Source: Chytridium lagenaria (Eukaryota; Chytridiomycota; Chytridiomycetes; Chytridiales; Chytridiaceae). Taken from it: 64,000 nucleotides of DNA. A model generated the notes under the pieces. The model did no database searches. It saw only the letters and a program-made list of their open reading frames with translations, and was not told where the DNA came from. The stretch's first letter is position 1. Each line of letters opens with the position of its first letter. Shown piece by piece: positions 1 to 64,000 of the stretch. A program made the translations under genes and the position numbers. Location of the stretch: positions 19,831-83,830 of the forward strand of contig JAHLKC010000160.1 in assembly GCA_025449115.1 (NCBI GenBank). The letters run 5' to 3'.

Positions 1-239
1 TAATGATGCCATTCTTTTCAGCCAGACGGTGGGAGTCCTTGTGATTATGTATTGAAATGAAAGGCGAACGTGGCGAGACAGACAGCTGGAACGATGGAGG
101 TAAATTGACTCGACTCGCATGGCGAGTTCGAGGATAGCAGTGAAGCGAAGGATGCGGCAATGGATCTCGAGAGGGAGCTGCGTGCGCTCTGATCATAGCG
201 ACTGGAAGGTGATGGACAGTTTGTTTGTGCATCATTGCA

Positions 240-320
240 GGGATAATTACTGGCTTGAAAACCCTGTACCACATCAACATTGATGTATGTTTGGCGTACG
301 TAACGTACGCCGTCGTACGA
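240..320 (+). repeat. left terminal inverted repeat
   Basis: Starts GGGATAATTAC and runs into CGTACG-rich sequence. It matches the right terminus in inverted orientation, most strongly over 264-303 (TCAACA, then ATGTATGTTTGGCGTACGTA). The outer 25 bases align with gaps. Confidence 0.72.
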
Positions 321-539
321 TAGCCTACGTTTTCCTACGCTAACACACATTTTAGATTCTAATAAAGTGTAAAAACGTCTACTACATGGTTAGTTGGATA
401 TGGCGATTAGCGTTCAAACAATGGTACAGCCAATCCTAAGTTTTCAAAGCCAACCCAGAAACAGAAAAGCGGTCAAAAAGCAATTTCAAAGCTTCTTTAC
501 CAGGCATGTTCTGAATCAAAGCGTCTTCCTTTAATGAAG

Positions 540-1460
540 GTAGTGAGTATAACGTACGCTAGCGTATCATGAATACGTTTGCGTAAGTCAAATGGGATTC
601 ACCATTTTAAAAAATTTTCGAGGGTTTTGAAAAAAGGTCGTTGGAAAAACGTACGCTAGCGTACCTTGAATGCGTTTGCGTACGTCAAATTGATTCACCA
701 TTTTTTAAAAATTTCGAGGCTTTTGAAAAAGGTAGTTAAAAAAAAACGTACGCTTTCGTATTCATTAATGCGTTTACGTACATCTTATGGATTCACCATT
801 TTTAGAAAATTTTTCGAATCTTTTGAAAAAGGCAGTTATAGCGTACGCTAGCGTATTATTAATGCGTCTGCGTACGTCTTATGGATTCAACCTTTTTTAG
901 AAAATTTTAGAGGCTTTTGAAAAGGGTCGTTAATATAACGTACGCTAGCGTATCATGAATGCGTTTGCGTAAGTCAAATGGATTCACCATTTAAAAAATA
1001 TTCGAGGCTTTTGAAAAATCTTATTAATATAACGTACGCAAGCGGACCACAAATGCGTTTGCGTTACGTGACATTGATTCACCATTTCTTTTAAATTTTC
1101 GAGGCTTTTGAAAAGGTAGTAATATAACGTACGCAAGCATATCATAAATGCGTTAGCGTACATTCACCATTTTTAAAAAATTTTCGAGGCTTTCAAAAAA
1201 GGTAGTTTTAAAAACGTACGCTAGCGTACTATGAATGCGTTTGCGTACGTCTTATGGATTAACCATTTTAAAAAAATTTCGAGGCTTTTGAAAAAGGTAG
1301 ATAAGACACGTACGCTATCGTATTATTAATGCGTTAGCGTACGTCAAACGGATTCACCATTTATAGAAAATTTTCAAACCTTTTGCAAAAGGTAGTTAAT
1401 ATAACGTACGGTAGCGTATCATAAATGCGTTTTTGTACGTTAATTGGAATCACCATTTCT
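540..1460. repeat. left subterminal array, about 95-base unit, about 10 copies
   Basis: Each unit has a CGTACGCTAGCGTA-like core, then ATGCGTTTGCGTACGTCA, GGATTCACCATTT, an A/T-rich stretch, TTTTCGAGGCTTTTGAAAA and GGTAGT. Cores fall near 553, 653, 750, 842, 940, 1032, 1127, 1216, 1309 and 1405, a spacing of 89-101 bases. The best cores contain the perfect palindrome GTACGCTAGCGTAC. Subterminal arrays of short motifs are known transposase-binding platforms in other large DNA transposons; that role here is inferred. Confidence 0.85.
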
Positions 1461-1797
1461 AGAAAGTTACCAACGGCTGAAAGCTGAACACCGTTGACGT
1501 AGAAGCAATACGTCCGCCTACGATCTACTCTATTCGGATGATATGAAAATATATATATATTTCGAGAAACACAGCCTGAGCTATCCTACGTTTTAAAATT
1601 ATTAGTACGTAAGAATACGTAGACGTATGATATCGTTTTGAAAAGGCCATGTGGTGGTCGCTACTGTACGTTGCAACAACTCCGCGTTTAAGGTCGTTTT
1701 CTTTATAATGAGATTTGGATTCAGCATATGACAATGTAAGGTGAGAGGAAATAAGTTCATAATGTCGTTAACACGGTCTTAGCACAGTATGTTGGAT
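1461..1797. other. spacer between left array and transposase stop
   Basis: A/T-rich sequence with scattered CGTA motifs (near 1500 and 1590-1630) and a short TA run at 1548-1560. It includes the 3' flank of the transposase gene. No coding sequence is supported. Confidence 0.5.
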
Positions 1798-4700
1798 TTA
1801 TTTTTTGGCTTTATACTTAGAAAGGAATTCTTCCTCGCCAAGCTTTTCCAGCAGTAGAAATTGTGATCGATTTGCCGCACACACGTATGTATGAATTGCC
1901 ATTATTGCGTGTGGCTCCGTCATGTATGATGTCGTTTTTCTCATCTTCTTCATTCCCTTATTTGCACTCTCTGTTTGACTCGTATTTACGTCTCCTACAG
2001 CAGGATCTCCCCGATAGTGTTTTGCGTGAGACGCTCTTGAGCAACCAGTGTGCGAATATGAGTGGGAAATCGTCTATAATAAATCGACAGTCTTTGAAAA
2101 AGTCGAATTCACGAAGGGTGCAATAATCAGCAGCATGGCAATTGTTGTCAGCGAGGCAATACTGAGGGCAGTCTTTAAATCTTGAAGTTGTCATTACGTC
2201 GGTTTACATCTTAATATACCTTGTAAATAGCGTTGAAAAGAGGTCATTTACGCTTTCAAATGACGGAAACATATGAAAACCTATGTAGAACTTATGCCTA
2301 CACAAGAAGACCATTGCACCTGCAGTCATGGTTTTGGTTATTTTCTGACGCTCATAATACTTTGCGCATCGAGCTCCATCAATCTCAGTTGCCGCAACCC
2401 GATCAGATCTCTCTTTAGTTCTTCCTTCCTTTAACTTTGTATAAATAGGACGCTCTCGAACTTGAGGTAGAAAGTAAAAGCATCCTGTCTGTATGGGGTA
2501 TTAGTTAATTAAATAAATAGGATTAGGGTTAAACTTTCCAAAAGATAATCGTTTTGGTTGCTAATTGGGAATTCTTTAGTTGGGGTGTTATAATGTTCGT
2601 GCCTTCTAGAAACATCATCAACGCGCCCAATAAGCCACCGAATAAATAGGGCAAATAGCGGCTCTATGCTGTTTCGTTTTGCAATAATCATTGTTGCCTT
2701 TAGAACTCCCCCAACAGAGGGAGCAAACTTTTCGAGATTACAGATCAAGTCTTTCTTGCTGGTGCTATCAAGATCGTTCCAAACTAATAACTGCTGGAGT
2801 AGCATTCTACCGCGAGGCAGGATAATAGTTACAACTGACTGCTCACATCCTACCTAGTAAAAAGTCAGCAAAGATTATATTTAATATACTAAGTAAACAT
2901 ACGCCACCATACGCCAGCCTACGCTAGCGTACACTGACCGTTACAATACGTCCGTATACGTACCCGTACGCAGACGTATGTATAACATTTCAGAGAATGT
3001 ACCTTGTACTACGCTAGCGTATGGTGACGTACGAAAACGTTTGAATATGACTTACAACTTCTAAGAGATGGCGGAAGGCAATATATTCGTGTTCTGTCCA
3101 ATTTGGAGAAGTTATCCATCTTAAAAATCCAGGCCATAAGTTCCAATGACATGCTAAAGCAACTCCCAATTCGTGGGCAGCGGTGTCAATCACATCTGAG
3201 ATACCCTTAGGGGCTTTCCTGTACTTCTCCGCGAAGTTTCTTAAAAGTTTCCGATGACTATAATTATTAATAAACTGATATGATTAGCACGTTTTAAGCA
3301 GTAAAATGATACCCATTTTTCCTTCAAATATTTAACAGTATCATTTCGCGGACTGTTTTCATAAGTGCGTGTAGGTGGAGCTAAATTTAAGGTCTGCCTA
3401 TCGATGCTATATCCTATACTTATACCGTCACAAGCAACAAGGTCGTATCCGTTGACAGAGCAGAACGGGCATTGGACATCCATGTTGATTGAACGGCGAG
3501 ATAAATCTTGAAGCTTTCGATATGCGAAATAAGCCTGCAGAAAATGTTTAGATAATAAGTACGTGCAATACATACAGCAGTAAAAACGCGGACACTTGGT
3601 GGTGCTGCATGTGGTTTCCCAAGTGCAAATTCGTAGTAACACGTTTTGCGAGTCGCAATAAAGACGGTAAACGAAAACTCTGTGCTGGTCATAAACTCCG
3701 TCATCATGTCCATCAGCCGGTGTGTGTAAAATGACACGTTATTTTTGTTGAATATGCCGTGAGAACCCATATCAGGACCAATAAATCTGCGATCTGTCCC
3801 AGGACAAACGGAACAACGAGCTGTCTCCACTGCAATAGGCCGAGCTGCTGTCTCCGTATAGAGGGTGCCTCTCATCCAGCACCTTTCTGACGTTGAATCC
3901 TCAATAGAAAAACCACATTGGCACCTTGAATCCTCTTCCAATCGGTAGACGTGAAATGGGTTAGTTGTGCTATTCTCTCCAGCTCTAAACGCTCTTGGAG
4001 GCCAGCGTTTACTCTCCTGGAAAAGCATGAGAGAAGCTGGTGGTGGTATTGGCTTGAAAGAGACAGATGTATCGGTAACTTCTTTTAGGACCCCAACACT
4101 CTGATCGTCAAACATAATAGCATCGGTATCATGCTTTCGGACAATTTCTAGATGATAGCAACTTGCACCCGCGTTGACCTTTCCTCCACGGCATTGCTGG
4201 CCTTGACAGGTGAAACTAACTTTATGCTTGTTGATAAATAGGCGAACAATTATCCACTGAGCTCCTGTGGAAATTCGGCGGTCGAAAACGGCGTATATCT
4301 TAAATTTTGGGCTTATGCACAGAGCGTGGTAAGGAAGATTGTCTAAGGTATTATTAGTTACAAATGTTTGTTTACATACTACCCATCGGTTGCCTGAGGT
4401 ATGTTTGAACTTGCGGTATGACATCTTTGTGAATACAGGGTTTTATGCCAGATGTACAGTTGCAATCTACTCTCTCTAACTCCTCTCCTGGGTTCCAGAT
4501 TTTCACCACATAGAACTTCGTAGTCTATGATAAGTAAGCTATAAAATAAAACATACTTTCAAAAGAACCTGTGTAATAACTGTGTTTTCACCTTTATATT
4601 CCTGCAGAATGTAAACATTTTCTGGTCGAGGCAAAGACACAATGTAATAATGGTAAAGTTGGTTGCTGTAATATAAAAGCTCGTTTGCACGATCTTCAGC

Positions 4701-5124
4701 CGATCTAAATAATGTTATTTGAAGGACAATGAACCAAACTTACGCGTGCAAGCTGTATCCCTGTCGGTACGATTCTCTTAAAGGCAAAAATACATCTGAC
4801 AGAGTACTGTCATCATTGTTTATTACCACCCCATCCACATCTTGGTCATCATCGTTAAGGTTTTGTGAAGCAGAATCCACCTCCTGTGCCTCTTTGTAAT
4901 TATCTAAGCGCGCACGTTTAGCCGCAGCATCTTCCTTAACCCATCGAGCTTCTTCTTCTAAGAACCGACCTTATTACATTTATAAATAGAAATTACTGTT
5001 AACTACTGTTACCTAAGGGACCGCGTTTGTAATTGATGCTGCTATCTGTTTGTTTTCTTTTGTGCTTTTTCTCTGCCCTTGTCAATCCAGACGCAGCAAA
5101 GTCTTCCAGTGTTAGCGAATCCAT
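1798..5124 (-). CDS. KDZ-associated (CxC5/CxC6 or HMG-type) DNA transposase, multi-exon, one frameshift
   Basis: Ten exons fit GT-AG rules: 5013-5124, 4744-4957, 4557-4704, 4383-4524, 3576-4342, 3313-3534, 3056-3274, 2535-2853, 2208-2484 and 1798-2180. They total 2803 bases; removing one extra base gives exactly 934 codons including stop. In order the protein shows an acidic/basic N-terminus, a SWIM-like cluster (VDCNCTSGIKPCIHK: CxC..CxH), a second cluster (TCQGQQC..CYH), RFIGPDMGSHGIFN, a CPFC motif before VACDG, GFHMFP, LADNNCHAADYC, then HSYSHTGCS and NTSQTESANKGM. The D of CDG, the D of ADNNC and the E of TES are candidate DDE residues (inference). The family match is from memory: cysteine-cluster proteins associated with KDZ transposases. 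A GGG at 2064-2066 has one base too many and shifts frame between RFIIDDF and HSYSHTG. The 27-base last intron is unusually short and the least certain junction. Confidence 0.78.
2854..3055 (-). other. 202-base transposase intron containing a CGTACG block
   Basis: Donor GTAAGT at 3055, acceptor CTAG at 2854, phase 0. All other introns in the gene are 27-55 bases. The extra length is filled by CGTA-rich sequence (about 2895-3040) of the same type as the subterminal arrays, so a motif block seems to have been placed or kept inside the intron. Confidence 0.65.
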
Positions 5125-5204
5125 AAGACGCTGATGCTTGATGTGTGATGTGTGATGTTACGCAACTTAACGTTCAAATTTTATGACTCCGTATCCCAGG
5201 TCAT

Positions 5205-5300
5205 GAAAAGCGCTTTCGTACGAAAACGTACGGTGTGCGTCGTCAGACCTATTTAGGACGTAACCGTACGCTGCCTTACGTCAGCGTACGTTTCATACTT
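5205..5300. promoter_or_regulatory. CGTACG block upstream of the transposase gene
   Basis: At least six CGTA/TACG motifs between 5216 and 5292, 90-170 bases before the transposase ATG at 5124. The position suggests a promoter-proximal binding site array. The role is inferred. Confidence 0.5.
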
Positions 5301-5483
5301 GAATAAATCATTTCCCTATTTTTGTTAACTAGACTCAAATACAGCCGTAGAAACCTGACTAAACTCTAAACTCGCCGACCCCAAACAGGCTCAAGGGAAA
5401 ATGTGACTTATAAACATGGAAAAGATATAATGAAAACCGTTCCGTCAGATTGAATTAATTGTGAGTGCCAAATATTTAGTATG
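5301..5483. other. spacer before the central tandem array
   Basis: A/T-rich, non-coding. No recognised signal apart from its end grading into the first, most divergent unit of the 333-base repeat. Confidence 0.4.
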
Positions 5484-6848
5484 CTGCTGCCACCTAAGAC
5501 TTGCCGACGCCTCCAACGCTTGTGTGATATATCATATGGAAGCCCTTACATTGCAGATGATATTTAAACTATTTTTTACTTCTTTACGCGGAGCCATGGG
5601 CGCGTCATCGCCCTTTCAGGTTGATTTTCCCTAATATGTTAGACCTTAAATACGTATAAATCAACATACAGACATGCCAACTGCATAAGACCATCACCAT
5701 TGTGTTCTCCTATGACGATTACCTCAGAATCATTTTACACAACGTTACGTTTCACTGGTCGTCAACGTCGCCTCTTGCGTTGCGGTAATTTAGGGTTCAA
5801 CACGTAAATTGCACTGTGCTGCTGCCACCAATGACTTGCCGACGCGTCCGACGCTTGTGTGATATATAATATGGAAGCCCTTACGTTGCAGATGATATTT
5901 AAAGTATTTTTTACTTCTTTACGCGGAGCCATGGGCGCGTCATCGCCCTTTCAGGTTGATTTTTTATAATGTTAGACCTTAATTACGTATAAATCAACGT
6001 ACAGACATGCCAGCTGCATGAGGCCATAACCATTGTGTTCTCCGATGAAGATTACCTTAGAATCACTTTACACCACGTTACATTTCACTGGTCGTCAACG
6101 TCGCCTCTTGCGTTGCGGTAATTTAGCGTTAAACACGTAAAATGCACTGTGCTGCTGCCACCAATGACTTGCCGACGCGTCCGACGCTTGTGTGATATAT
6201 CATATGGAAGCCCTTACGTTGCAGATGATATTTAAAGTATTTTTTACTTCTTTACGCGAAGCCATGGGCGCGTCATCGCCCTTTCAGGTTGATTTTTTAT
6301 AATGTTAGACCTTAATTACGTATAAATCAACGTACAGACATGCCAGCTGCATGAGGCCATAACCATTGTGTTCTCCGATGAAGATTACCTTAGAATCACT
6401 TTACACCACGTTACATTTCACTGGTCGTCAACGTCGCCTCTTGCGTTGCGGTAATTTAGCGTTAAACACGGAAAATGCACTGTGCTGCTGCCACCAATGA
6501 CTTGCCGACGCGTCCGACGCTTGTGTGATATATCATATGAAAGCCCTTACGTTGCAGATGATATTTAAACTATTTTTTACTTCTTTACGCGGAGCCATGG
6601 GCGCGTCATCGCCCTTTCAGGTTGATTTTCCCTAATATGTTAGACCTTAAATACGTATAAATCAACGTACAGACATGCCAGCTGCATGAGGCCATAACCA
6701 TTGTGTTCTCCAATGAAGATTACCTTAGAATCACTTTACACCACGTTACATTTCACTGGTCGTCAACGTCGCCTCTTGCGTTGCGGTAATTTAACGTTAA
6801 ACACGGAAATTGCACTGTGCTGCTGCCACCAATGACTTGCCGACGCGT
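5484..6848. repeat. 333-base tandem repeat, four units plus a partial fifth
   Basis: The phrase TGCTGCTGCCACC recurs near 5483, 5818, 6150, 6482 and 6818, followed each time by GACTTGCCGACGC. Each unit also holds GCCATGGGCGCGTCATCGCC, TACGTATAAATCAAC and CGTCAACGTCGCCTCTTGCG. Internal units are nearly identical; the first is the most diverged. No open frame spans it. It lies centrally in the transposon between the transposase and the second gene. Confidence 0.92.
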
Positions 6849-7145
6849 TTTTATTGAAGTAGATTAATTTTACACTGTACTTATTGGAGGAAAGATATAT
6901 ACAGAACAATGTGGGTTAGTAACATGATAACAGAACAACCGGAACAAAAGTAACAAAGAAAAAATATAAAACAATAAACATAAAGTTTAACTTATAATAT
7001 GTATAAAAAATTATGTAAAAATTCAAGGAAATAGATTAATAAATATTAAATATTATATTAGTATAGAAGTATAATAAACAATTATAGGTATAGTTATTAT
7101 AAAAGGAACAGATATTTAGTACCTTAAAATTTTCTTTCTGATACG
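6849..7145. other. A/T-rich spacer
   Basis: Very A/T-rich sequence between the tandem array and the 3' end of the second gene. No coding sequence or repeat recognised. Confidence 0.45.
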
Positions 7146-9176
7146 TTAAAGCATTTCCCTTTTTCGTGATACGCTGACGTACGTGGACGTACGCAGGTTT
7201 ACGGAAGTTGGTGTAACAGAAGCACCCAGCGCAGGATGACAATTGGCAGTTAATACTTGGCAAGAACAAAGCATTGCAAATATAACTAACGTTGATTTAT
7301 TTACAGAATTCGCAAAAATGGCAAATGCAATAAAAACAATACTCAAGTGATCAAGTTTTTCACAAAAATCTTCTTGGAGGATGCTTGACGAGAGCTTGAC
7401 GATGGCAAAAATGCTTTGCAAAGGGCCTTTTTTCATATTAATTATTCGCTACTACCATAAATATGTAACATACCCCCAAAGTTGCGGGCGAGATTGATCT
7501 TCAAATTTCTCAATACCTGCAATTCTCGCGTATTGACACAAGATATCCATGCTATCGTTCATGGTTATATATTCTCGGTGTTTGCTGCTTCCTGTTTTAA
7601 CAAAGGGTTTAATATGAATTTCGCAAAATTAGTCTTACCCTTTTGTCCTGCTTCACTATCATAATCGGCCTCTGTCTCTTCTACCTTTTTTCCTTTTGAT
7701 TTGGGGGAGACTATGTTGAATTATTTAAATTTGAAACCAAAAAAATCGTACCTTTGCTTTTCTTTGTCTTTGAGGTCAGCTTCTTCTTCCCCTTTGCCTT
7801 CTTTGACTGCTCGTCATCTCCAACGTTTTCCTCCGATGATTCGCGCGGGCTTCCATCAGTTTTCGCAGGAACCACTTTCTTGTTTGCCCCCTCTTTTTCT
7901 ATAACCAAATCAGAGTTGATAAAAAAATACGCCTAACCTTTTGAAGCTCCTGCTTTTACTTTCGAATCCGTTTCGCATTCAACTGCATGTTGTTTTAAAC
8001 CTTCAATAATATAAAAAGGGTTAGCGCCAAAATAAAATTAATATCCATACCCATGACTGTATTAACATTCTCTTCACTCATGGGGTCATAATCGTCATTG
8101 TCGTCGCTGTCGTCGCGCTTAGCTCTGCTTATAGCTCTGGATTTGGAGGTATCCTTAGGTTGGCCGACATCGCGAGCTGAAGTGGTGTTGAAGTCATCAG
8201 TATCGGGGTATTGGCAACGTCATGGTCGGAATCAGACTCCGGCAATCTCTTCCGCGGTATCAATTGAACTGGTCGAGCTTCCTCATCACGATTTTTCGAA
8301 GCAAATCCGACTTGCTTCACTTTCGTTGCAGTCGGTACCGCCGTGCTAATCTCACTAACATCTGAAGCTGATGTCAAAGTACCTTTGACGAAAATAAGTT
8401 AATAGTTATCTTTTCCAAAGCCTTACTTTTCAAATTACTTTTAGGATCAACTTCGGTCGTGTCAGACAACGTATCTCTGAATTCGTCTTTGACCTCAGCA
8501 TTGGCCTTGTTGTGAAGTATGGAAATCTTCCCCGTTTCACTAACCCTGACACCGTTAATTTGCGCTCGAGGTGGGGGAGGGTTTTGAGAAAAAGCCTCGA
8601 GATATTCTTTGTTTATCTTATATACGTCAGTTTAAAATCGCACCCATAAAATAATGACTTATACCTCTTCAAACTTATTGGTGAGTTGTGCCTTTTCTCT
8701 AAAATCGAGTTCGCGGTCTGCTTGAAGAGCTTCCATCATAGATGTGTAAGAGCCGTGAAAGTCCTTAATGCGGTGCAGAAATTCCGTCTCTTTGGAGGAG
8801 AGTTTCGTCTTGATGGCTAAAACCGTAACAATGCTAAACCGGGTTATGTGAATATATAGATTATTTACAAGGCTCAATAAAATATAATCATGTAGAAACT
8901 TACTTCTTACGATAAATGTCGGTTGGAGTATGGTACCTGCCCTCTTCTCTGCGTTTCTGTGTCTTGGTTGGTGGGGCTACTGTTGCAGCAGCAGGATGTC
9001 CAGATTTCCGAGACAGAATTGAGGCCGTTGCTTCAACAAGCATCTCTTTTGATTGGAATTGCGAAACAAACGTGAGAAACATGGGTCGAAGCTTGTGCGT
9101 TATCATGAGGTGGTCCTCAAGATCTCGAGACTGCTGAACCTCATGTAGCTCTTGGTCACAGCACGGACAGTACATG
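7146..9176 (-). CDS. transposon accessory protein B: C2H2-like zinc finger, acidic middle, Lys-rich tail
   Basis: Not a family I recognise. The first exon starts at ATG 9176 with MYCPCCDQELHEV and EDHLMITH, a C-x2-C...H-x4-H zinc-finger pattern. A donor near 8914 joins a helical exon (KLSSKETEFLHRIKDFHG, 8659-8830), then exons with YLEAFSQNPPPPRAQ (about 8475-8610), RKRLPESDSDHDVAN (about 8130-8377), DDSDDNDDYDPMSEEN, and KKAKGKKKLTSKTKKSKG (about 7752-7890). The last exons (about 7146-7600) include QYARIAGIEKFEDQSRPQLW and are the least certain. Introns are 40-60 bases. The gene is on the same strand as the transposase and inside the TIRs, so it is likely an accessory gene, possibly DNA-binding (inference). 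A CGTACG block lies 30-120 bases upstream. Confidence 0.5.
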
Positions 9177-9207
9177 GTCAAGAGAAAATGAGAAAGAAAT
9201 TGTCAAA

Positions 9208-9300
9208 GCGTACGTAACCGGATTCAATATATTTTAAAAATATATTGCAATTTTATAAGAAAGCTTGCACAAGAGCCTTTCGCCGTACGTAAACGCTTGT
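9208..9300. promoter_or_regulatory. CGTACG block upstream of accessory gene B
   Basis: CGTACGTAA at 9209 and CCGTACGTAAACG near 9283 lie 33-120 bases before ATG 9176. Same motif class as at the other two genes; regulatory role inferred. Confidence 0.42.
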
Positions 9301-9872
9301 ATTAATAAATGTCAATTTTACTAAATGCATAATAATGTTTGCTACTATAAAGATGCAGCAACAAACTATGAAAGATTTCAATTATAACCCCTCTTACTTT
9401 AAAGTAAGCTTGCTGGCTTCCTCGTTTATATTAGGCACTATTAGGTTTCGTCGTTTTATGGTGTTTTCTCTAAAAAAAACTTAAGCAATAATCAGAAATC
9501 CCAACAATTATGAAAATCAGAAATCCTAACAATAACTTATATTCATGAAAACGCCGGCGTATGCAGTAATACGCTGACGTACGTAAACGTATGCAAACGT
9601 TGAAATACGTAATCGTATGCAAACGTACGTGCGCAACACTTTGGTCAATTATAAGAAATACGGTAGCGTAGACATTCGTACGTTAACGTTTGTAATTACA
9701 GATACTTCATAATTGTATTTCAAAAACTAATGGGAAATGAGCGGAAAAAATGAACTTGAATTTATCTTTTAGTCGGAGAAAACGAGGGTGTTCTTGTTCG
9801 GGAGGACCATGAAGTTGAACGGTTTGATGCTAGGTAAGATTCACAGATTATAAAAAGAACTTAGTAAACATT
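9301..9872. other. spacer with a second CGTACG block (about 9545-9695)
   Basis: Non-coding sequence between genes C and B. It is A/T-rich to 9540, then a dense run of CGTACG, CGTATGCAAACG and related motifs to about 9695, followed by unassigned sequence that could hold a further 3' exon of gene C. Confidence 0.5.
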
Positions 9873-11299
9873 TTAGGAGAAGGCCATACATAAACGCGAG
9901 GAGCGACGCTTAGTTTGGCGTGGACTTGGCGTTGATTCCACTCCGGTACGGCCGCGTTTTCTGGTGCCCTGCTCATCATCGTCTAAATCGCGGTTCACCA
10001 TACCATTAATTCTGTCACCCATATGACTCAAGTTGTTTTCAAGAGAATCCGCCATAGATTGAATTTTTTGCCCGACAGGATCCAATCTGTTCAATGAAAA
10101 GTGAGTTATTCAAAAAAAAAAAAACACAAACCGCTCCTGTAATGCACTGTCAATCATGGGGGCCACTTTATCGAAATCAGACTTCAGTTCAGCAAGTGTT
10201 TTATGAAGGCCGGCAAAGTTAGCTCGCATTTCCCTCCTCATTGAGTTATTATCATGCAACAGAGAAAGGAACGTATCACGCAGCGCTATATCTCGTTGTA
10301 CCGTAGCATGTTGCTGTTTGATCAAGTATATGTCATTCAGGCGTTTAAGCTCATCCACATTAAAATCTGTCAAATCATTAGTTGCCAAAAGCCACCATAT
10401 ACTTTACCTGGAATATTTTGTGAGAATTGAGGAGAAATATATGCTCTCGCAGATCTTCCTTCCGGGTACGTCGCGTAAATTAATACAGCACCATCGATTT
10501 TGCGACTAAGATAATCTCCCTGAGTGGAAGAAATTATAGTAATAAGAAAAAATTACTTAACAAAACTGATCCTACAGATTTCATCATAGCATTAAAATGT
10601 CTTCGAAAAAACATGCTTTTAAGGTTTGCGTTTGGATTCTGCGAGTTGTACGGAAATGAGTTCTTTCGTTCATTCATTTGCTTTACGGATCCTACAAAAT
10701 TAGATATTTCTTCATGAATATAAAAAGTTAAACCATCAGGTACAAAGCTTCCACGATCTATAATGTAATGTCCGTTGATGGGAGCCGCTTGATTTATTTG
10801 TTGTTGCTGTCGGTATCGCTGTTGTTGAGCCCCTTTATTATGTACCATGTTTAACAAAGCCAAAAATCCTTTTACTCACCAGCTTCAGCTACCGTAAGTG
10901 ACTCTGTAATCCGAGCATCTTCTGCAAGCTCATCTTGCCTGGTAAGTTCAAGCAGAGTCTCCTCAGGCGGCTCTGCTTCGAGTACACTGTAAGTTAAAAA
11001 CCATCCCAACCAAATAACAGAATGTTAATAAAACCTGAAGGGTCATTATCTGAGCTTGATACTAGCATTGCGGCAGTGGGGTTGCTGTTGTCTCCATTAA
11101 AAGCTGCACGACGAAGTTCTTCCGCATCAGAGTCAGGTGCAAGCTCATAATCCAGCTCATCCTCGTCGCTTGCTACTTCATCATCTCTCTCAACGCGGTT
11201 GGGATCTTCGTCGCTCGCACTCATATCTTGATCTAATTCAAGATGGGTTGGAAGGCAGCGGATAACATTGTTTCGGCTGGAGCGACGAAGATGTGACAT
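9873..11299 (-). CDS. transposon accessory protein C: acidic N-terminus, Gln-rich stretch, coiled coil, basic tail
   Basis: No family recognised. It starts at ATG 11299 (MSHLRRSSRNNVIR). The first exon is strongly acidic (DEDPNRVERDDEVASDEDEL). Splicing near 11038 and 10974 joins EPPEETLLELTRQDELAED; the next junction joins QQQRYRQQQQINQAAP and then HYIIDRGSFVPDGLTFYIHE and FPYNSQNPNANLK. A further exon (about 10405-10515) reads SRKIDGAVLIYATYPEGRSA. A helical segment follows (10130-10373) with LNDIYLIKQQHATVQRD and LHKTLAELKSDFDKV, likely coiled coil. The last exon ends RKRGRTGVES and RQTKRRSSR, a nuclear-localisation-like tail. All joins keep frame. Inferred role: nuclear accessory factor of the transposon. 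The stop at 9873 could instead be bypassed by a donor just before it. Confidence 0.6.
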
Positions 11300-11404
11300 C
11301 CCCTTGTTGCTTGTCGCTTGTCAACAAAATTTCTTCACAGGTATCTCCCAAAATAACAAAAACATCTAAGAAAAACTGTTTTCCGATGCACACAGAAAAA
11401 TGCC

Positions 11405-11975
11405 GTATTAAAGCGTACGCAATCGTACGTGAACGTATGTTGACGCACAATGAAAATGCCGTATGGCAGCGTACGCTTTCCTACGTGTACGTATGTCGGC
11501 GCACAGTGAATTAAATTTTTCATAAAAATAAACGACTCAAAGCCAACACCACAATAAAACGTATAACAACATCATTATGAATAAGATCCGAGCACAATTC
11601 AGACAATTCTTAGGCATGCTAATCATTCAATGAAAAATGCTGTATTACAGCATACATTATCATACATGTACGTATGCCCGCGCACAATAAAAAATGCCGT
11701 ATTGCATCGTACGCTATCATACGTGTACGTATGCGGGCGCACAACGAATTTAATTTTTCATAAAACCTTCCCGATGCACTTCCCGTACGTTTTAAGATAC
11801 AACTATAAACAATAAACGACGCAAAAGCCAACACCACAATAACCTGTGTACCAACATCATCACAATAAGATCCACGCACAAGTAAGAATAATCACTAGCC
11901 ATGCTGATCATTCAATGAAAATGCCGTATTACGGCGTACGCGATCATACGTATACGTATGCCGGCGCACATCGAA
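11405..11975. repeat. right subterminal CGTACG array
   Basis: Five motif blocks (near 11412, 11468, 11650, 11706, 11934) share GCGTACGC, TACGTGTACGTATG and GGCGCAC with small changes. Paired blocks are separated by AATGAAAATGCCGTATT. The longer frame (paired blocks, TTTTTCATAAAA, then AAAGCCAACACCACAATAA) is repeated around 11400-11640 and 11640-11900, with a partial third copy. The block at 11412-11500 also lies 110-200 bases upstream of gene C. Confidence 0.8.
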
Positions 11976-12186
11976 TTTTATTATTCATAAGCATACCTCC
12001 AAGAAGCGTGCGTTCCCGATAGAACGTAGAGCGATGCTATGGATAAACCCGCAAAGTAACGGATGAAAAACGTTACCTAGCACCCGTACGATGCTGCAAA
12101 CATTCGCAGGAAGAGGTAAACATGTATTTAACAAGGACTAATCAAAAGGCGAACGTACGTTTGCGTACGTACAATGATGCGCGTAC

Positions 12187-12266
12187 GTCAACGTACGTGT
12201 ACGTACGCCAAACATACATTAGTGTTGATGTATGTGTAGGTTTCATACACAGTTACATAACCCGGG
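12187..12266 (-). repeat. right terminal inverted repeat
   Basis: Read on the minus strand it starts CCCGGGTTATGTAAC and continues through TCAACA and ATGTATGTTTGGCGTACGTA, mirroring the left end. It lies 36 bases before the ATG of the Bmt2-like gene. Confidence 0.72.
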
Positions 12267-12279
12267 ATTGCAACAAACA

Positions 12280-12300
12280 AAAAAAAAAAAAAAAAAAAAG
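12280..12300 (+). repeat. poly-A run next to the transposon insertion
   Basis: An A run of about 20 bases between the transposon end and the Bmt2-like ATG. It may belong to the host 5' flank; such runs are also prone to length error. Confidence 0.6.
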
Positions 12301-12301
12301 A

Positions 12302-13242
12302 ATGAAGAAACGACGGCCAAGGTCGCTCGTTGAGCCTACTCCTCGTTCCAAGCCATCCACCCACCGCACCATCCCCTCCCACCGCACCCAAAAGATCATC
12401 TCCACCTACCATGCTCTCAACAAACGTCTCTCACTCTGTCTCAAACAAAACGACGAAGCAGGTGCTACCCTCATCCACACCCAAATGGCCGCCATAGTGG
12501 TCTCGATGCCTACCAAAAAGCATCCCTCCGAGGTGGTGATGAACGAAAGGGAAAGGGAGCTTGTGGGAAATGGCTTGTACCGATATTGAAAAAGGAAGGA
12601 CTTGTGGATGGGGGTGAGAGGGTGAGGTTGTTGGATGTGGGGGCTGTGAATGGGGAGACTTATGCGAGGCAGAGAGGGTGGATGGAAGTTACGTCGATTG
12701 ATTTGAATCTCAACACCCAGGGATATTGAAGGAGGATTTTTTTGAAAGACCGATACCGACAGTGATGGAGAAAGGTTTCATGTTCTTTGTTTGTCGCTTG
12801 TTGTCAACTTTGTTGGAGAGCCGGAACGGAGAGGTGAGGATTCTTTCGGTATTCGCTTCTTTCGGTATTCGCTTCCGGTCTCAGTTTTTGCTTTTTTTCC
12901 TGTTGGTCGTGACGGAGGGAAAGCTACCACTACCCCATCACTGACGTCAAAGTCCCAGGTGAGATGCTCCGTCGTACCCACCAATTCCTCCTCCCAAACG
13001 GTCTTCTCTACCTCGTTCTCCCCCTCCCCTGCGTCACCAACTCTCGCTACCTTACCCACGACCGTCTTACAAAGATCATGACCTCCCTCCGTTTCCAAGA
13101 AACCCACCACCATTTTTCTACAAAGCTAGCGCATTTTATTTATCGGAGACGGGACAATGGGGAAGAGAGGGAGTGGAAGAAGGAGGAGGTGAATCCGGGA
13201 GCGGGAAGGAATAATTTTACGATTGTGGTGAAGAAGACGTGA
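12302..13242 (+). pseudogene. BMT2: 25S rRNA adenine-N1 methyltransferase Bmt2-like gene, frame-disrupted
   Basis: Bmt2 methylates adenine N1 in the large-subunit rRNA in the nucleolus using SAM. The conserved order is visible across frames: KIISTYHALNKRLSL near the N-terminus; SGLDAYQKASLRGGD and KWLVPILKKEGL; the SAM-binding core VRLLDVGAVNGETYAR with VTSIDLN as the acidic ligand strand; ILKEDFFERPIP; LSLVVNFVGEPERRGE; and LYLVLPLPCVTNSRYL. An intron from about 12835 (GTGAGG) to 12960 fits between RRGE and MLRRTHQF. At least three single-base shifts break the frame (about 12430-12490, about 12720, about 12780). With the transposon only 36 bases upstream, decay is plausible, but homopolymer errors elsewhere in the window make sequence error equally possible. 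Confidence 0.75.
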
Positions 13243-13604: not shown

Positions 13605-14137
13605 TGGCATCCTTCTCCATCCCTTTCCACCTCACCCTCAACGCCATCCTCGGTCTCGGCATCCACAAACCCGCACACCCCACATCCACACTCACCTCCA
13701 TTCCCTTCCTCTCCTTCCCCTCTTTCAAAACATGGGTCTCCGCAGACATCACCAGCATCATCACAACCACCCTACCCCGCCTTGTCGTCGCCTGTGTCGG
13801 GGTCATGGTTACCGGATATCGACGATGGATGTGGGGAGTCGGAAGAAAACTCGGGAGATGGTTGATAGGCTCGAGACGTGGGATGACGTTGAGGAGGAAT
13901 GCGGTGAGAAGGGTGAGGAGACGTCGACAGGATATGAGGTTGAATCCATCTGTGGACTTGATTGATTTTGATGGTCCTGTGATGGTACCTCAACGGGGTC
14001 GATTTTCCCGGATCCCCACTAAAGACGTCAACAAGACACCGATTACAGGGTTGAAAGATTTGATTGCGAATTCCAAGACGGTGGCGTTTAAAAAACATGG
14101 TTCGACGGGGGTGTCTGATGGTCGAAGATGCGAACGA
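13605..14137 (+). CDS. hypothetical protein with possible membrane segment
   Basis: Not recognised. From ATG 13605 (MASFSIPFHLTLNAILGLG) the frame runs through a hydrophobic segment (TTTLPRLVVACVGVMVTGY) followed at once by a very basic stretch (RRGMTLRRNAVRRVRRRRQ), the layout of a single-pass membrane protein with a positive cytosolic side. It then reads DLIDFDGPVMVPQRG and TPITGLKDLIANSKTV and runs into the 14127-14640 minisatellite, where it stops after one partial unit. An upstream in-frame ATG at 13553 is possible. The true C-terminus may lie within the repeat in another frame. Confidence 0.4.
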
Positions 14138-14640
14138 TGACACGGAAACTGTCAAAAGAGGATATGGCCATGTTGTTGGATGAGACGGGTCCTAGTGTTT
14201 CGGATGGGTTGACGCCGTTGACGCCGTTGACGCCGCTACAACTTCTTGAGAGTATGGTGTCTCTGAAAGATTCGAACGACGACACGGAAACTGTCAAAAG
14301 AGGATATGGCCATGTTGTTGGATGAGACGGGTTCTAGTGTTTCGGATGGATTGACGCCGTTGACGCCGTGACGCCGTTACAACTTCTTGAGAGTATGGTG
14401 TCTCTGAGAGATTCGAACAATGACACGGAAACTGTCAAAAGAGGATATGGCCATGTTGTTGGATGAGACGGGTCCCAGTGTTTCGGATGGGTTGACGCCG
14501 TTACAACTTTTGAGAGTATGGTGTCTCTGAAAGATTCGAACAATGACACGGAAACTGTCAAAAGAGGATATGGCCATGTTGTTGGATGAGACGGGTTCTA
14601 GTGTTTCGGATGGGTTGACGCCGTACAACTTTTTGAATGT
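14127..14640 (+). repeat. minisatellite, about 123-144-base unit, four copies
   Basis: GA(C/A)(G/A)ATGACACGGAAACTGTC-type starts at 14127, 14271, 14411 and 14534 are followed by GAGGATATGGCCATGTTG, a variable number of TTGACGCCG triplet-pair repeats and GAGAGTATGGTGTCTCT. In one frame each unit reads KLSKEDMAMLLDETG and SVSDGLTPLTP, so it may be coding, but unit lengths do not keep one frame throughout. Confidence 0.85.
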
Positions 14641-15300
14641 ATGGTGTCTCCAGTGGAGAGGGATTGAATGCGGGAATTTTGTTGTTTTTACTTTTGGACT
14701 CTTGTTTTCTTTTTTTCTTGCATTTTCATGATATCCCCCACACACATACTGTATATCCCCCGCTTTATTTACTCGAATTCTAATGATTTGGCGTTGATAT
14801 TGACGGTCTTTTACTTACTTGATCTTTTTCTTCTGAATGGAGGATTTTTTGATGGCAATGCTTTCTTGTGGAATCACTCTTGTTTTTATTTACGGTCAAT
14901 CTTGGACCACTTTATTTTCTAGTTTAATGCAACCCTTGCACTTTCTTTTTTTTTTTCGGTCCACATAGACCCACTTTATCTTTATGCCTGAAACGAATAC
15001 ATCCAACATCATTCATCTTATCCTTTTCAAAGTTATCCTCCGCTGAAACACCAGCGACTCAAAGTTTCTAACACTCTCTTAAATTATCTTGCAGTATACA
15101 CCACTCCCCGCTCCTCCTGTTGGTTCCCTGCTTGCTGGATCGGACGAGACCACATTGAATGAGAACATGGAAATTGAAGGCGTTCCCGAAACTGAGTTTT
15201 CTTGAAACATCTAAAATGTTCTACTCGACTAGTCTTCTAATATTCTCGCGCCTACGCAGAGGTAAACCCACATTGTCGTGGACATTATTTAATCAGCCAG
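14641..15300. other. non-coding stretch
   Basis: T-rich then mixed sequence between the minisatellite and the 294-base direct repeat. No gene or signal recognised. Confidence 0.4.
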
Positions 15301-48008: not shown

Positions 48009-49480
48009 ATGAAGCCCTTTGATCTCAAGGACCCGGAGGGCCACTTGGAGCGGGTGGAGAAAACATGTCTGAAGAAGGGATTGAGGAAGGATGAGGAGAA
48101 GGCTCTGGAGTTAGTGACGACATTTACAAAAGGGGATGCAAAGACTCTCTACAGGAATTGGGTAGACGAGCAAGAGAAAACATCAGCTAGAGGGCCGGGT
48201 TTTCAAACCAACGTTCGATGAAATAGCGGATTGGCTGAAGGACACATATGGTGAGGGAAGGAAAACCATCGAGGATTTGAGGAGTATTGTCGACAGGAGC
48301 AAGGAGAAACGTTGGACTGCTGAAAGATTTAGGAACAAGTTCACCGAAGCCTACGAAAAACGAGAGCCTACCATCACTGACGCCGAGGGTGCCAGACTCT
48401 TCGTGAAAGGGTTGCCGACAAGGGTGCGAGAGGTCTTAGAGTCGAACAAAGATCTTTTTGACGACGAAACAGACCAGTACAAGGTTCCGCTGATGAAACT
48501 TGTGCACGCAACGAGAGGGAAGAAAGCGAAAAGAGTGGATAGGAAGGGCAAAGGAAAAGCTGAATCTGATGGGAGTGATGGGGATCGCAGTGAAGAGACC
48601 GCAGAAGACACCAGCGAATCGGACTTAACAGGAACCTCCTCAGAGGAATCTTCATCAGAAGAGGAAGGGAAGGGTACAGTAGAAAAAAGAGAGGGGAGAA
48701 GCAGTAGAGAGAAGCGGAGGAAACGAGGGAAACGGACAAAGTGGGGGAGAAAGAGCAAACATCGTACGTCGGTGAAGAAGGATGACGAAGTTACAAAGGG
48801 TCTGAGGAAAGAGATAGAGAGATTGAAGGAGGAGAGAACTAGGGAGGGAAGAAAAGTTAAGAGAGGAAAGACTAAGGGGGGAAAAGGGTGGAGTGAGCAG
48901 CGGAGGAGAGATCAGCGAATTGACGGCACAAATGAAGGCGCTGGCGCTGACAGTCAGCGAGCTCGCGAAGAGACCTTCAGTAGCATCAACAACGCCGACA
49001 CCACATTTGGTAGGAGGCCCTCCTTACAGCGGGAGTCGGCCTCCGAGACCGCCGCTTGATCCCGACCGCCCGAGGAACTGCTATGTTTGTGACTCCACGG
49101 AGCATCAAACAAGGTCTTGCCCTGTGTTCGACGAGCTGGTAAAGTTAGGGTGGCCTCTCAAGAAAGAGAACGGCTACGTGGTAGTACGCACGGAGGATGG
49201 CGTTTCCCAAGATGTCGGAGTTGGATACGGACGAGGGGGAATTGCTGGGGTTCTTGTCCAAAAGTTTCCTCATTTACAAGTCAAACCAGCTGTAGAGACA
49301 GGGAACGTACGAATGGCAGTTCTTGAGCTGAGGAAGGATGAAGAGATTAGGGACGGTGAGAGGAAAGAGTGGCTTGATTGGCAAAGGAGGTACGGGAGAG
49401 GGCACGGGGAGGGTGGCATCCCAACAGGGAAGGTGTATGCATCGAGGATAGTGGTGGACGCGGCGGGTGGGAGTCTCTAA
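48009..49480 (+). pseudogene. gag of gypsy element, frame-broken
   Basis: Starts MKPFDLKDPEGHLERVEKTC. The frame shifts near 48195-48205 to reach FDEIADWLKDTYGEGRKTIE and LFVKGLPTRVREVLESNKDL (capsid-like), then a Ser/Glu/Lys-rich linker (48520-48880), and shifts again near 48890 to the nucleocapsid knuckle CYVCDSTEHQTRSC (C-x2-C-x4-H-x4-C) at about 49081-49122. It ends VVDAAGGSL at 49480. Confidence 0.75.
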
Positions 49481-50526
49481 AGGAGAGGGTGGGAGCCGAT
49501 GGGAACATGCCGTTGAATACTTTCGTAGCCACAGAAGGAAGTAAGGAGGGGAATAACGGGAAAATTTCCATTGACGCAAGGGTCGGTGGGGCGGTGTCTT
49601 CCTTGGCAAGAACGATCTTACGAGCGAAGAAACGTCAGTCACGCTGATGTAGAGTTGGTAGAGCGCACCTGGAGCTGAAGACAGGTTACAAAGGGAAAGG
49701 TGTTATGCCACTTGAGGATTTCATCGGGGTCGTGGTGGATGACCGAGAGGCAGAAAGGGGTAGCGAGATTTACTTGGGGAAGAGAGAGAGAAGGCGAAGA
49801 TACGGATGAGAAACTAGGAAAAAGCAGGCGAGGGCTGGATTAGCGGGGGAGTCAGGGTCGTCCATGAGTCTTGACGAGGAAGATAGTAGGAGGGGGGCAG
49901 AGAAGGTCGGGTCATCCTTGCCGTCGGAGAGGAAGGGGGGCTGGTGAAGAAGCTCGAAAGGTATCTTGGGGCAAAAGAGAGACGGCAGGGGCTAAGAAAT
50001 CGGTGAAACCTACGGAGTCGGGGAGGTTCGAGGAGAGAAAACAGTTGGAGGATGTCATAAAGGGTTCAACGCCAACAGAGGAAAGGAAAAGGCCCAAGCT
50101 TTAAATACCTTTCTCAACTGCAAGAAGGATTCCAAACGCATCGAAAGACATAGCGGACGTGATACTCAAAACGCCGGTAACGGTGACGGCAGGTAGCTGA
50201 TGAGCCTATCTGGAATCCGCAGAGAGATGCAGAAGATCACAAACCTAAGGAAAGTATCTATTCCGCAAGCAAGCCTTGTGGGAGTTCAAGAGACAAGCAG
50301 TGATGAAGACGACGGCGATGACGAGATGGAATACCTAGAGAGGACGTTGTTTGAACCATAGGGGACTCGCGTTTCGTGGGGGTTGAATTCGGGACGTGTC
50401 ACTCAGCGAAGGGGGGGCGGGGATGGAAGATGAGGAAAAAGTCAGAGAAGAGATTTTTGCGCAAGTCGAAGAGGACGGGGGGGGGGAAGGAAGAATGATG
50501 CGAGAAAGTGGCCAAAGATTCGACCC

Positions 50527-50960
50527 TTGGTCACTCAATCCCCTCACCTGACGGAGGTGGAGGTGGTGTCGATGGAGGGAGGCCTTTATATTCCGAGAGT
50601 GCCAAATGACGATGGTTCGCAGATGAATCTAGTATCGAGGGGTTTGGCGGGTGAGATTGAGAAAAGAGGAGTGAAGATCCATTGGGATTTCACTTTCAAC
50701 ATGCGTTCGGCTAACGGAAGTATCGACAAACTTGAGGGAATGATCCCAATTTGCCAGTATTTGTGGGAGGTGTCAGATTTGAAATAGCGGCTCTGGTTGT
50801 AGGGGACAACGCGCCCTTTGCGCTACTTTGGGGTTCACCAGCGAATCAAGCAGCAGCAACGAGAACGGTTAGGGACCCTAAAACAAAGGAAATGACGGTC
50901 TGGATGCAGAACCAGAGGGATTCTCGGTGTTTTACACGCGCTACGAGGCTTTGATTCGCG
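50527..50960 (+). pseudogene. retropepsin-like protease of gypsy element, frame-broken
   Basis: The active-site region reads PRVPNDDGSQMNLVSRGL (D-D-G-S) near 50598-50650. The flap/C-terminal part ALVVGDNAPFALLWGSPA near 50790-50845 lies in another frame. Confidence 0.6.
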
Positions 50961-51979
50961 CGACGTGTTGGTTAACGACGAGGCAAAAACCTATAAGGGA
51001 GTCAGGAAGGCGGAAAGGGACCGAGAGCTAAGAGCTAAGATGGGGGAGGATTTTGGAGGGGCCTGGCCGTGGAGGGGGTTCGGGCCGAGATGTGTTGAAG
51101 GAAGGGTGTTAGAGGTTGGGGGGGGGGGCGACGAGGGAGAAATGTGTCAGGGAAATAGAGAAGAAAAGAAAAAGGGAACGGAGGATAGAAGGGAGTAGTA
51201 AGGGGGAAGGAAACAAAAAAATAACAAAGAAGGAAAATGGTCGCATGAAACGTCGGAGTTTGGTTTAGGAAAAGAAAGAAAGACGAGAGAATCGAGGCAG
51301 GAAGCGCAGAGAATGCTATAAAAGAAAAAGGAACAGCAGGAAGTCGGGATATAAGTGGTTCAGGAGACCATGAAGGGAGCCGGGAGGGAATAAGAGAAAA
51401 TAGTTATGGCGTTGGGAGGTGTTCGTATGTGGAGGGTTTAAAAAGGGAGGTGCTATGAAGGATGCGATGACAGGTAAAGGGAGGAGAAAACTAAAGAGAT
51501 TGGTTAGAGAAGCGGGTTTGAGGATTGAAGAAGGGGAAGAAGTGGTGGGATATATGAAGAGGGAGGAAGAATATAGGGTGGGGAAAAATCGCCGAGGCGT
51601 TAGGAAAATCGCTCAACAGTTCTGAAACCTTGTCAGAGGAGGAGGAGAGGAGGGTAACGTGGGCGACGATGGAATGGGGAGAGGCTTGGAAAGGGGACCG
51701 GGAGCGTCGGCTTAATGCTGAGAGCCGATTTCTGGAAGTAACGGGGGAGTTGATGGGGTTCAGCATGGGGGCAAAATACAAACCGGTCGCGAAGAAGAAG
51801 AGACCAGCTCAAGTATCGTTGGAGGGCGGTCACAAGCCAATGAATTGGACTGTGGTAGATATGAGCAAGAATGAAGGGGACGTGGATTCGTGCCGCCTTA
51901 ACGTAGAAAGGGTAGACGCCATGTTAGAGGTAATATCATGAACGAGGCAGAGCAGGAGCGATGAAGGAGGTACTTTACC

Positions 51980-63400: not shown

Positions 63401-64000
63401 GCACTTGAGCGTCTTTTTCGTTGGCGTCGGCTGTCGTCTTGAGGATAGGTGGGGCTCCAGCGGTTGTTGAGTTGAGTGAAGCTGGGAAATTGCCGATGAT
63501 GTCCTTGACGTTGATGACTCCCAATCTGACGTTGGGAAGTCTTGCGAGGCGGTTGAAGGTTTTGCCGAGATGTGTTCAATCGAGATGGGAGCGTTTTCCT
63601 TGCAGATCCATCGGTGGCTTGAGAAGGAGAGCGTGTTGGTGGTCCAATCAATGCGTGGGTTGACGCGAGAGAGCCAGTCTTTTCCGAGGATGACGTCGTA
63701 TGCGATTGGAGCGGAGACGAAGTCTTGTTTGGTGGAGTAGAAGTCGATGGAGAGCTCGAGGTTCTTGAAGAGTCGTCCTCTGACTGCTGTAGAGGTAGTT
63801 GCTGCTAGTTTGATGTCGAACTTGTCCTCAGAGGTAGGTGTTGATACCGAGAAGGCGAGGGATTCCTTGACGAAGGAGTGAGTTGCTCCTCCATCAATGA
63901 GAATCTTGGCTTGGCGATTGTTGAGGTACCTTGAATAACGAGAAGGTTTTCGCTTGAGTCTTGCCTGCGAACATGATGGCTGGCAAGGTAGGTTTCTTGA
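60443..64000 (-). pseudogene. chromovirus pol (protease, RT, RNase H, integrase, chromodomain), truncated by window end, frame-broken
   Basis: From the window end inward: protease motif ILIDGGATHSFV (about 63890-63915), DVILGKDWLSR; reverse transcriptase FSKLDLASGYHQIRI, VVMPFGLANAPATFQSMV and the catalytic IAYMDDILVF (about 62820); thumb LGYHVANGQLEVLPSRIQAI; RNase H LYTDWSESAVGSYVAQPG, LVEAFRTHRHYIIGRQVKVF, DHRSLQYIL; integrase zinc part (HGNWERTAEKITRNYHW, LCDSCQRNKIA) and core (ISMDFMGPLPT, IISDRDSKFIS, HPQTDGQTENKNQW giving D, D, E); GPYTIEEKLGTSYRL; then a chromodomain (RVEKLLALRTLKGPR, ALIKWLNHSPIYNTWLPFDD). Single-base shifts near 62270, 62040 and 61960 separate the blocks; reverse transcriptase and integrase are each intact internally. 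The chromodomain suggests heterochromatin-directed insertion. Confidence 0.92.

Follow-up and report, generated by a model that had tools for sequence, protein, structure and literature searches.

A stretch of 64,000 nucleotides from the chytrid Chytridium lagenaria (assembly GCA_025449115.1, contig JAHLKC010000160.1, here C160, positions 19,831 to 83,830 of the forward strand; hereafter the window) carries at positions 240-12266 a DNA transposon with three genes, all on the minus strand. The element is bounded by terminal inverted repeats (TIRs) and by a flanking ATTGCA, and it contains arrays of short words built around CGTACG at both ends and near its genes. A sequence-only reading had proposed that this segment is a single transposon unit, and had suggested looking for an empty site joining 239 to 12267 and for other copies sharing the TIRs. 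Both were found upon searching the assembly (41.9 Mb, 356 contigs), and TIRs, a target-site duplication (TSD) and an empty site, the features expected of a cut-and-paste DNA transposon, are thus all present.

The limits of the element were set by comparison with the empty site. When the two flanks were joined (window 91-239 and 12273-12421, a query of 297 nt that is one A short in a poly-A run), the genome search matched C281:767-1070 over positions 1-297 of 297 with 97% identity. In particular, C281:850-1000 reads GTTTGTGCATC-ATTGCA-ACAAAC, with a single ATTGCA, where the window has one ATTGCA at 234-239 and another at 12267-12272, on either side of the element. Because the flanks on C281 are joined with a single copy, ATTGCA is a 6-bp TSD, a length of exactly 6 bp that comes from one insertion, and the element spans exactly 240-12266. 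The empty site proves that this segment was inserted with a 6-bp duplication and, as the same flanks occur empty on C281, the insertion is heterozygous. Occupied and empty versions of the locus are both contained in the assembly, and therefore copy numbers may include allelic pairs; further empty and occupied allele pairs should likewise be findable.

The left TIR (240-302, plus strand) starts GGGATAATTACTGGCTTGAAAACC and the right TIR (12200-12263, minus strand) ends ...TACATAACCC. They align with 63 matches in 84 columns when the right arm is read inward from 12263, as compared with 60 matches in 87 columns when it is read from 12266, and the inner arms 271-302/12200-12231 are 94% complementary. 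The termini are GGGATAAT/GGGTTATG, the latter beginning at 12263. The right border proposed earlier, 12266, is thus upheld by the TSD, but the TIR proper ends at 12263 and leaves an additional GGG at 12264-12266. Absent from the empty site, these three bases also do not recur at the right ends on C13, C43 and C181, and could represent either a variant terminus or nucleotides that were added when the element inserted. GGG at this position mirrors the terminal CCC and resembles palindromic added nucleotides.

Of the 12 matches returned by a genome search with positions 240-420, two are the ends of the element itself, one on C131 covers the inner arm, and nine are left ends (C64, C343, C122, C13, C195, two on C314 and two on C148). 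All nine start at the equivalent of base 240, the C13 terminus differing by one base, and the C64 end is 99.1% identical to the element over 1307 bp. In a looser blastn comparison the C314 and C148 ends extend six bases outward and the C195 end one base, which is best read as chance likeness of the flanks (ATTTCC versus ATTGCA). C314 and C148 share one flank through an inverted duplication, and therefore six independent flanks are available besides the window's own. On the same grounds, the possibility that C314 and C148 hold short two-ended elements was rejected in favor of a rearranged duplication. C148 carries about 2 kb of element end and flank as a 98% inverted duplication, and C314 a shorter related one. 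C13, C43 and C181 have the right end GGGTTATATAACC or one close to it, next to flanks unlike each other; their termini read GGGTTATATA... and finish ...CCC, at the equivalent of 12263. The right end on C131 is AGGTTATG, and neither a left end nor a TSD was found for this right-end piece.

Gene 1 (1798-5124, minus strand), the transposase candidate, was delimited by Pfam matches, tblastx and tblastn comparisons and a spliced model with ten exons (5124-5013, 4957-4744, 4704-4557, 4515-4380, 4342-3576, 3534-3313, 3274-3056, 2853-2535, 2484-2220 and 2180-1798), in which eight of the nine introns measure 37-55 bases and the remaining one 202. Its product contains the cysteine cluster CxC4 (PF18717), with an E-value of 6e-23 in the window's open reading frame (ORF) and 4.1e-24 in the homolog on C343. 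The SWIM motif suggested for inspection is represented by a SWIM-like sequence, CNCTSGIKPCIH, N-terminal to CxC4. Since P0001, a gene-1 homolog modelled by the depositor, reads the SWIM-like motif and CxC4 in one frame, the splicing model is supported. CxC4 is followed by QCPFC..VACDGISIGY, CRHKFYIGF, DNNC, FIIDDF, H..GCS and NTSxTE. Among these, CDGI, DNNC/DDFH and NTSxTE are conserved acidic motifs, and the catalytic residues of gene 1 are putatively placed in them; CDGI occurs in 13 of 13 distinct translations of the D1 region among the loci analysed by tblastn with a query that itself contained the motif. In the window gene the frame is broken in the last exon (1798-2180), which is open in C13 and C343; C122 has a frame break of its own, near the window's but elsewhere, and C13 a frame change inside the CxC4 exon.

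Relatives of gene 1 were found in the same species. The spliced window gene, cut ahead of the break, had no match at E<=0.001 among 3886 protein candidates, and an alignment of four families gave three matches at E<=0.01, all from Chytridium lagenaria, with scoring confined to the 8000 candidates that had most words in common with the query; for genes 1 and 3 alike, the restriction to one species rests on word-limited protein searches. A search against the sequences of solved structures gave only chance-level matches (best E 0.17), and no relative was found in one scan of viral contigs, from which records close to the window's genome may be excluded.

The reading frames of all three genes are conserved in tblastx comparison with C13, a diverged 10.8-kb copy that carries the genes in the same order and orientation; the comparison with C122, whose contig ends there, covers gene 1 only. 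Gene 2 (7452-9175, minus strand) was recognised by its conserved frames and genome matches. It encodes an N-terminal C2H2-like finger (MYCPCC..LEDHL..H, named by eye) and a charged tail, and the model is uncertain in its 3' half and at its end, placed by eye at about 7450. In the searches of this genome, the MYCPCC start, followed by L-E/K-D/N-H, was seen in 11 of 12 loci with identity between families down to 27%, while in the twelfth, on C43, the finger is not visible in the matching frame. Gene 3 (9873-11299, minus strand), likewise defined by conserved frames and genome matches together with a homolog model, has an acidic N-terminus, a conserved central GDYLSRKIDGAVLIYATYPEGRSARAYISP block and a basic tail. 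For its homolog P0004 a helix of 98 residues is predicted, with block means of 67-86 over residues 201-290 in the predicted local distance difference test (pLDDT); this helix is the only usable part of a model built from two sequences with a mean pLDDT of 49.8. Two matches at E<=0.01, both from the same species, were obtained for gene 3 among 5159 protein candidates, and neither gene 2 nor gene 3 had a Pfam match over the cut-off.

The three genes also travel together elsewhere in the genome. The CxC4 profile has 51 genome matches, every one above the curated cut-off, and the C-terminal piece of gene 1, gene 2 and gene 3 gave 94, 29 and 100 exon matches, respectively. Clustering used 196 match rows, further exons of loci already listed being left out, and yielded 59 merged loci of gene 1, 24 of gene 2 and 55 of gene 3 in 95 clusters; seven of these hold all three genes, 12 genes 2 and 3, nine genes 1 and 3, and three genes 1 and 2. 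Gene 2 lies within 9 kb of gene 3 at 18 of 24 loci (0.64 expected, at most 4 in 2000 random placements), gene 2 near gene 1 at 10 of 24 (0.71 expected, at most 5) and gene 3 near gene 1 at 17 of 55 (1.60 expected, at most 7), the random placements treating the genome as one string and ignoring allelic pairs and segmental copies. The linkage among homologs of the three genes thus greatly exceeds the chance level, in agreement with the earlier proposal that the three genes belong to one unit, and elements of this kind are widespread in the Chytridium lagenaria genome. Up to reversal, six of the seven three-gene clusters have the order 3-2-1, C114 having 3-1-2 with gene 2 almost 9 kb away. In the window and C13 the three genes point the same way, whereas gene 3 is turned in C229 and C349, and genes 3 and 2 are turned in C95 and C221. 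Many copies lie about 8 kb or less from contig ends (C31, C36, C50, C64, C77, C87, C98, C122, C156 and C181), owing either to assembly breaks in the copies or to a subtelomeric location.

CGTACG, whose arrays had been noticed at both ends, occurs 42 times in the element versus 3 times in 12400-64000, and 300 dinucleotide shuffles of the element gave a mean of 2.4 and a maximum of 7. Starts of CGTA and TACG in the window copy are paired 49 times at a distance of 10 bases, twice at 9 and three times at 11; the corresponding counts at 10/9/11 bases are 37/4/1 in C13, 36/1/1 in the C122 piece and 1/2/3 in 12400-64000. Lags 8 and 12 are also high in the window (35 and 30) because CGTA and TACG sit two bases apart within CGTACG. 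Once words are merged, pairs at exactly 10 bp number 30 in the window copy (mean 6.9, maximum 16 in the jitter control) and 23 in C13 (mean 5.3, maximum 15), the control consisting of 2000 runs with words moved by up to 4 bases. Among the pairs of C13 that are 6-45 bases apart, 55 fall at multiples of 10 versus 20 for the next remainder. From the pattern of merged lags it follows that neighbours are one helical turn apart, with a drift over longer distances.

The window element has 17 clusters of at least four words and C13 has 16, while 12400-64000 has none. Besides the two ends of the element, these clusters occupy the 5' side of every gene, the 3' side of gene 2 and one intron of gene 1. 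The left subterminal array of CGTACG, CGTA and TACG words (295-1627), defined by repeat finder, word counts and cluster analysis, includes a tandem array with a unit of about 94 bp in 9.8 copies (537-1465). Cluster analysis places further groups in the gene-1 intron (2900-3033), 5' of gene 1 (5217-5290), 3' of gene 2 (7170-7203) and 5' of gene 2 (9558-9682, single CGTACG words standing also at 9209 and 9284); in C13 clusters likewise occur between the exons matching those around the gene-1 intron 3055-2854. The right subterminal arrays (11404-12207) include the words at 12182/12192/12202, their first clusters lie also 5' of gene 3, and the repeat finder reports tandem arrays at 11397-11510 and 11628-11744. 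The central 333-base array, previously taken as part of the unit, is present (5482-6848, 4.1 copies, 95% matches) but private to the window copy: all five genome matches of its unit are on C160, and the repeat-finder listing has no such array in the C13 loci.

Other families of the element use other words, namely CGGCCG and GTATAC in C39 and C229 and CGGCCG and ACCGGT in C77, while C100 is rich in GTATAC and TACGTA with six CGTACG. On C77, a dense GC-rich CGGCCG/ACCGGT array (locus 2700-3342), with its different word set, lies beside a gene-1 copy. In stretches chosen because they contain words, base identity at a period of 10 bp reached z values of 3.3 in C100, 2.7 in C39 and 1.8 at the C13 right end, as compared with -1.3 and -0.4 in control stretches. 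What is new here is a spacing of mostly 10 bp between CGTACG words, their clustering at the ends, on the 5' side of each gene and within an intron of gene 1, and the use of other words by other families.

Outside the element, the insertion lies about 35 bases ahead of an ATG at 12302, read by eye, that starts a Bmt2-like gene (Pfam Bmt2, 1.7e-11 in 12334-12729). Overlapping tandem arrays with units of 141 and 123 bases occupy 14125-14650. Two retrotransposon-like regions follow at 48166-54735 (plus strand) and 60443-63804 (minus strand); RNase H and/or integrase domains were identified in their ORFs 52564-54735 and 60443-62032.

These data are best accounted for, with a probability of roughly 60%, by a CxC4-type cut-and-paste transposon that may possess an accessory system analogous to TNPA, its phased words being bound by one or both partner proteins. 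Gene 1 would encode a recombinase of the D-D-E type, with the GGG... termini as its cleavage sites. The partners, gene 2 via its C2H2-like finger and/or gene 3 via its long helix, would bind the words along one helix face and assemble both ends of the element into a synaptic complex. They would also act on the words that stand 5' of the genes or lie within the intron of gene 1, and in this way control the expression of the element, much as TNPA does for maize En/Spm. Every family would then have a word peculiar to it, matched by a binding protein of its own, and words and proteins may co-evolve between families. Several observations weigh against this account. Neither complete copy, the window's or C13, has a fully open gene 1, and the structure model of P0001 was useless (mean pLDDT 30) and showed no catalytic fold. 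No clear TSD was found when one was looked for at C13. Many clusters are partnerless (37 of 95 with gene 1 only, 25 with gene 3 only and two with gene 2 only), perhaps because contigs end inside elements and the queries miss diverged copies. Finally, the next peaks of the merged lags in the window are at 18 (17 pairs, versus 5 at 20) and 28-29 instead of 20 and 30, and the 10-bp identity is weak in C221 (z 1.2) and C77 (z 1.0).

The element could instead be an ordinary member of the KDZ (Kyakuja-Dileera-Zisupton) superfamily, with genes 2 and 3 carried along as passengers and with arrays that the transposase itself binds through SWIM or CxC4. The Pfam entry for CxC4 says no more than that this cysteine cluster is associated with KDZ transposases, and 9-11-kb fungal KDZ elements that have a CxC1 domain, KDZ1-KDZ3 of Cryptococcus, are reported in PMC12810828. 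The KDZ-associated cysteine cluster that the sequence-only reading had recognised is indeed present, as CxC4, but the KDZ catalytic domain itself was not detected: PF18758 had no match at E<=10 in the spliced gene-1 homologs of C343 and C229, where filters discard most hits weaker than about 0.1, and the individual gene-1 ORFs of the window gave none at E<=1. CxC5 and CxC6 did not appear in the Pfam scans, and a CxC5 profile search of the genome gave no match, with no control match either. When five KDZ sequences of the same genome were compared with seven and two gene-1 sequences, the profile comparison stayed at shuffle level (48 of 150 shuffles reached the score) and hhalign gave a probability of 0.3%, both on shallow alignments. 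A homology based on motif spacing was attractive by eye and failed the shuffle test. That genes 2 and 3 stay linked in families that have diverged speaks, moreover, for a function. An ordinary KDZ element of this kind appears unlikely. With CxC4 present, the KDZ domain undetected, and TIR and duplication lengths that differ from those of described KDZ elements, the transposon is best called KDZ-like, of the CxC4 type, and not an established member of KDZ, to which it may be distantly related. The genome has 17 matches to PF18758, mostly on contigs other than those of the CxC4 elements, and therefore probably contains ordinary KDZ transposons as well.

The phased words might also serve gene expression, chromatin positioning or silencing and not transposition, as the clusters 5' of all three genes and in the intron would suggest. 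In the two complete copies, however, most clusters belong to the subterminal regions of the two ends (in the window 8 of 17, in 295-1627 or 11404-12207, and in C13 11 of 16, in 1067-2132 or 11676-11737), which makes this explanation quite improbable. Far less credible is a domesticated or dead remnant: the window gene 1 is broken in its last exon, but the same exon is open in C343 and C13, the C64 left end is nearly identical to the element's, and a heterozygous insertion with a perfect 6-bp duplication and an empty allele contradicts this idea as far as past mobility is concerned. A CxC4 element is now available with exact ends, a TSD and an empty site, along with two uncharacterised genes that travel with it. 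It is a more doubtful proposition that these elements form a eukaryotic DNA transposon superfamily of their own, new to science and characterised by a recombinase with CxC4 and SWIM, two dedicated partner genes and helically phased arrays on which a protein encoded by the element assembles, with families that have diversified words (CGTACG; CGGCCG/GTATAC; CGGCCG/ACCGGT) and binding proteins together. If true, orthogonal transposition systems would exist side by side in one genome. The Chytridium lagenaria genome offers a natural series of word and protein pairs, and the co-evolution of binding sites and proteins, a question raised for CACTA elements in PMC2613891, becomes directly testable. 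Phased words at the ends and near the genes suggest a little-known way to mark and regulate a transposon. Literature searches found nothing on chytrid KDZ transposons, on transposable elements of Chytridium lagenaria or on transposase subterminal sites at helical-turn (10 bp) spacing.

Among known systems, Mutator-like elements (MULEs) have transposases with a SWIM-type zinc motif and generate a TSD of 9 bp. The SWIM-like motif of gene 1 recalls them, but it is N-terminal to CxC4, the TSD measures 6 bp, and no MULE domain appeared in the Pfam scan of two gene-1 homologs. With the KDZ elements the window's transposon shares a large size in a fungus and a cysteine-cluster (CxC) protein (PMC12810828). 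It differs from them by CxC4 in place of CxC1, the lack of a detectable KDZ domain and TIRs of about 65 bp, as opposed to 139-241 bp in KDZ elements and none in Kyakuja; its 6-bp TSD compares with 8 bp in Zisupton, Dileera and KDZ1, 7 in Kyakuja and 4-8 in KDZ2/3, according to the accessible parts of PMC12810828 and PMC12730594. It further adds two linked genes and phased arrays, which these parts do not mention for KDZ elements. The likeness to CACTA elements (En/Spm, Tam1, Tgmt*) is one of organization, and comprises subterminal repeats, a proposed separate binding protein and possible autoregulation. The subterminal repeats of En/Spm are bound by TNPA, a protein that is required along with the transposase TNPD and regulates itself, and repeats and binding proteins diverge between CACTA families, as described in PMC2613891. 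CACTA termini and a 3-bp TSD were not found here: the termini are GGG and the TSD is 6 bp, and the element is set apart by other protein domains and by the 10-bp spacing of its 4-6-bp words.

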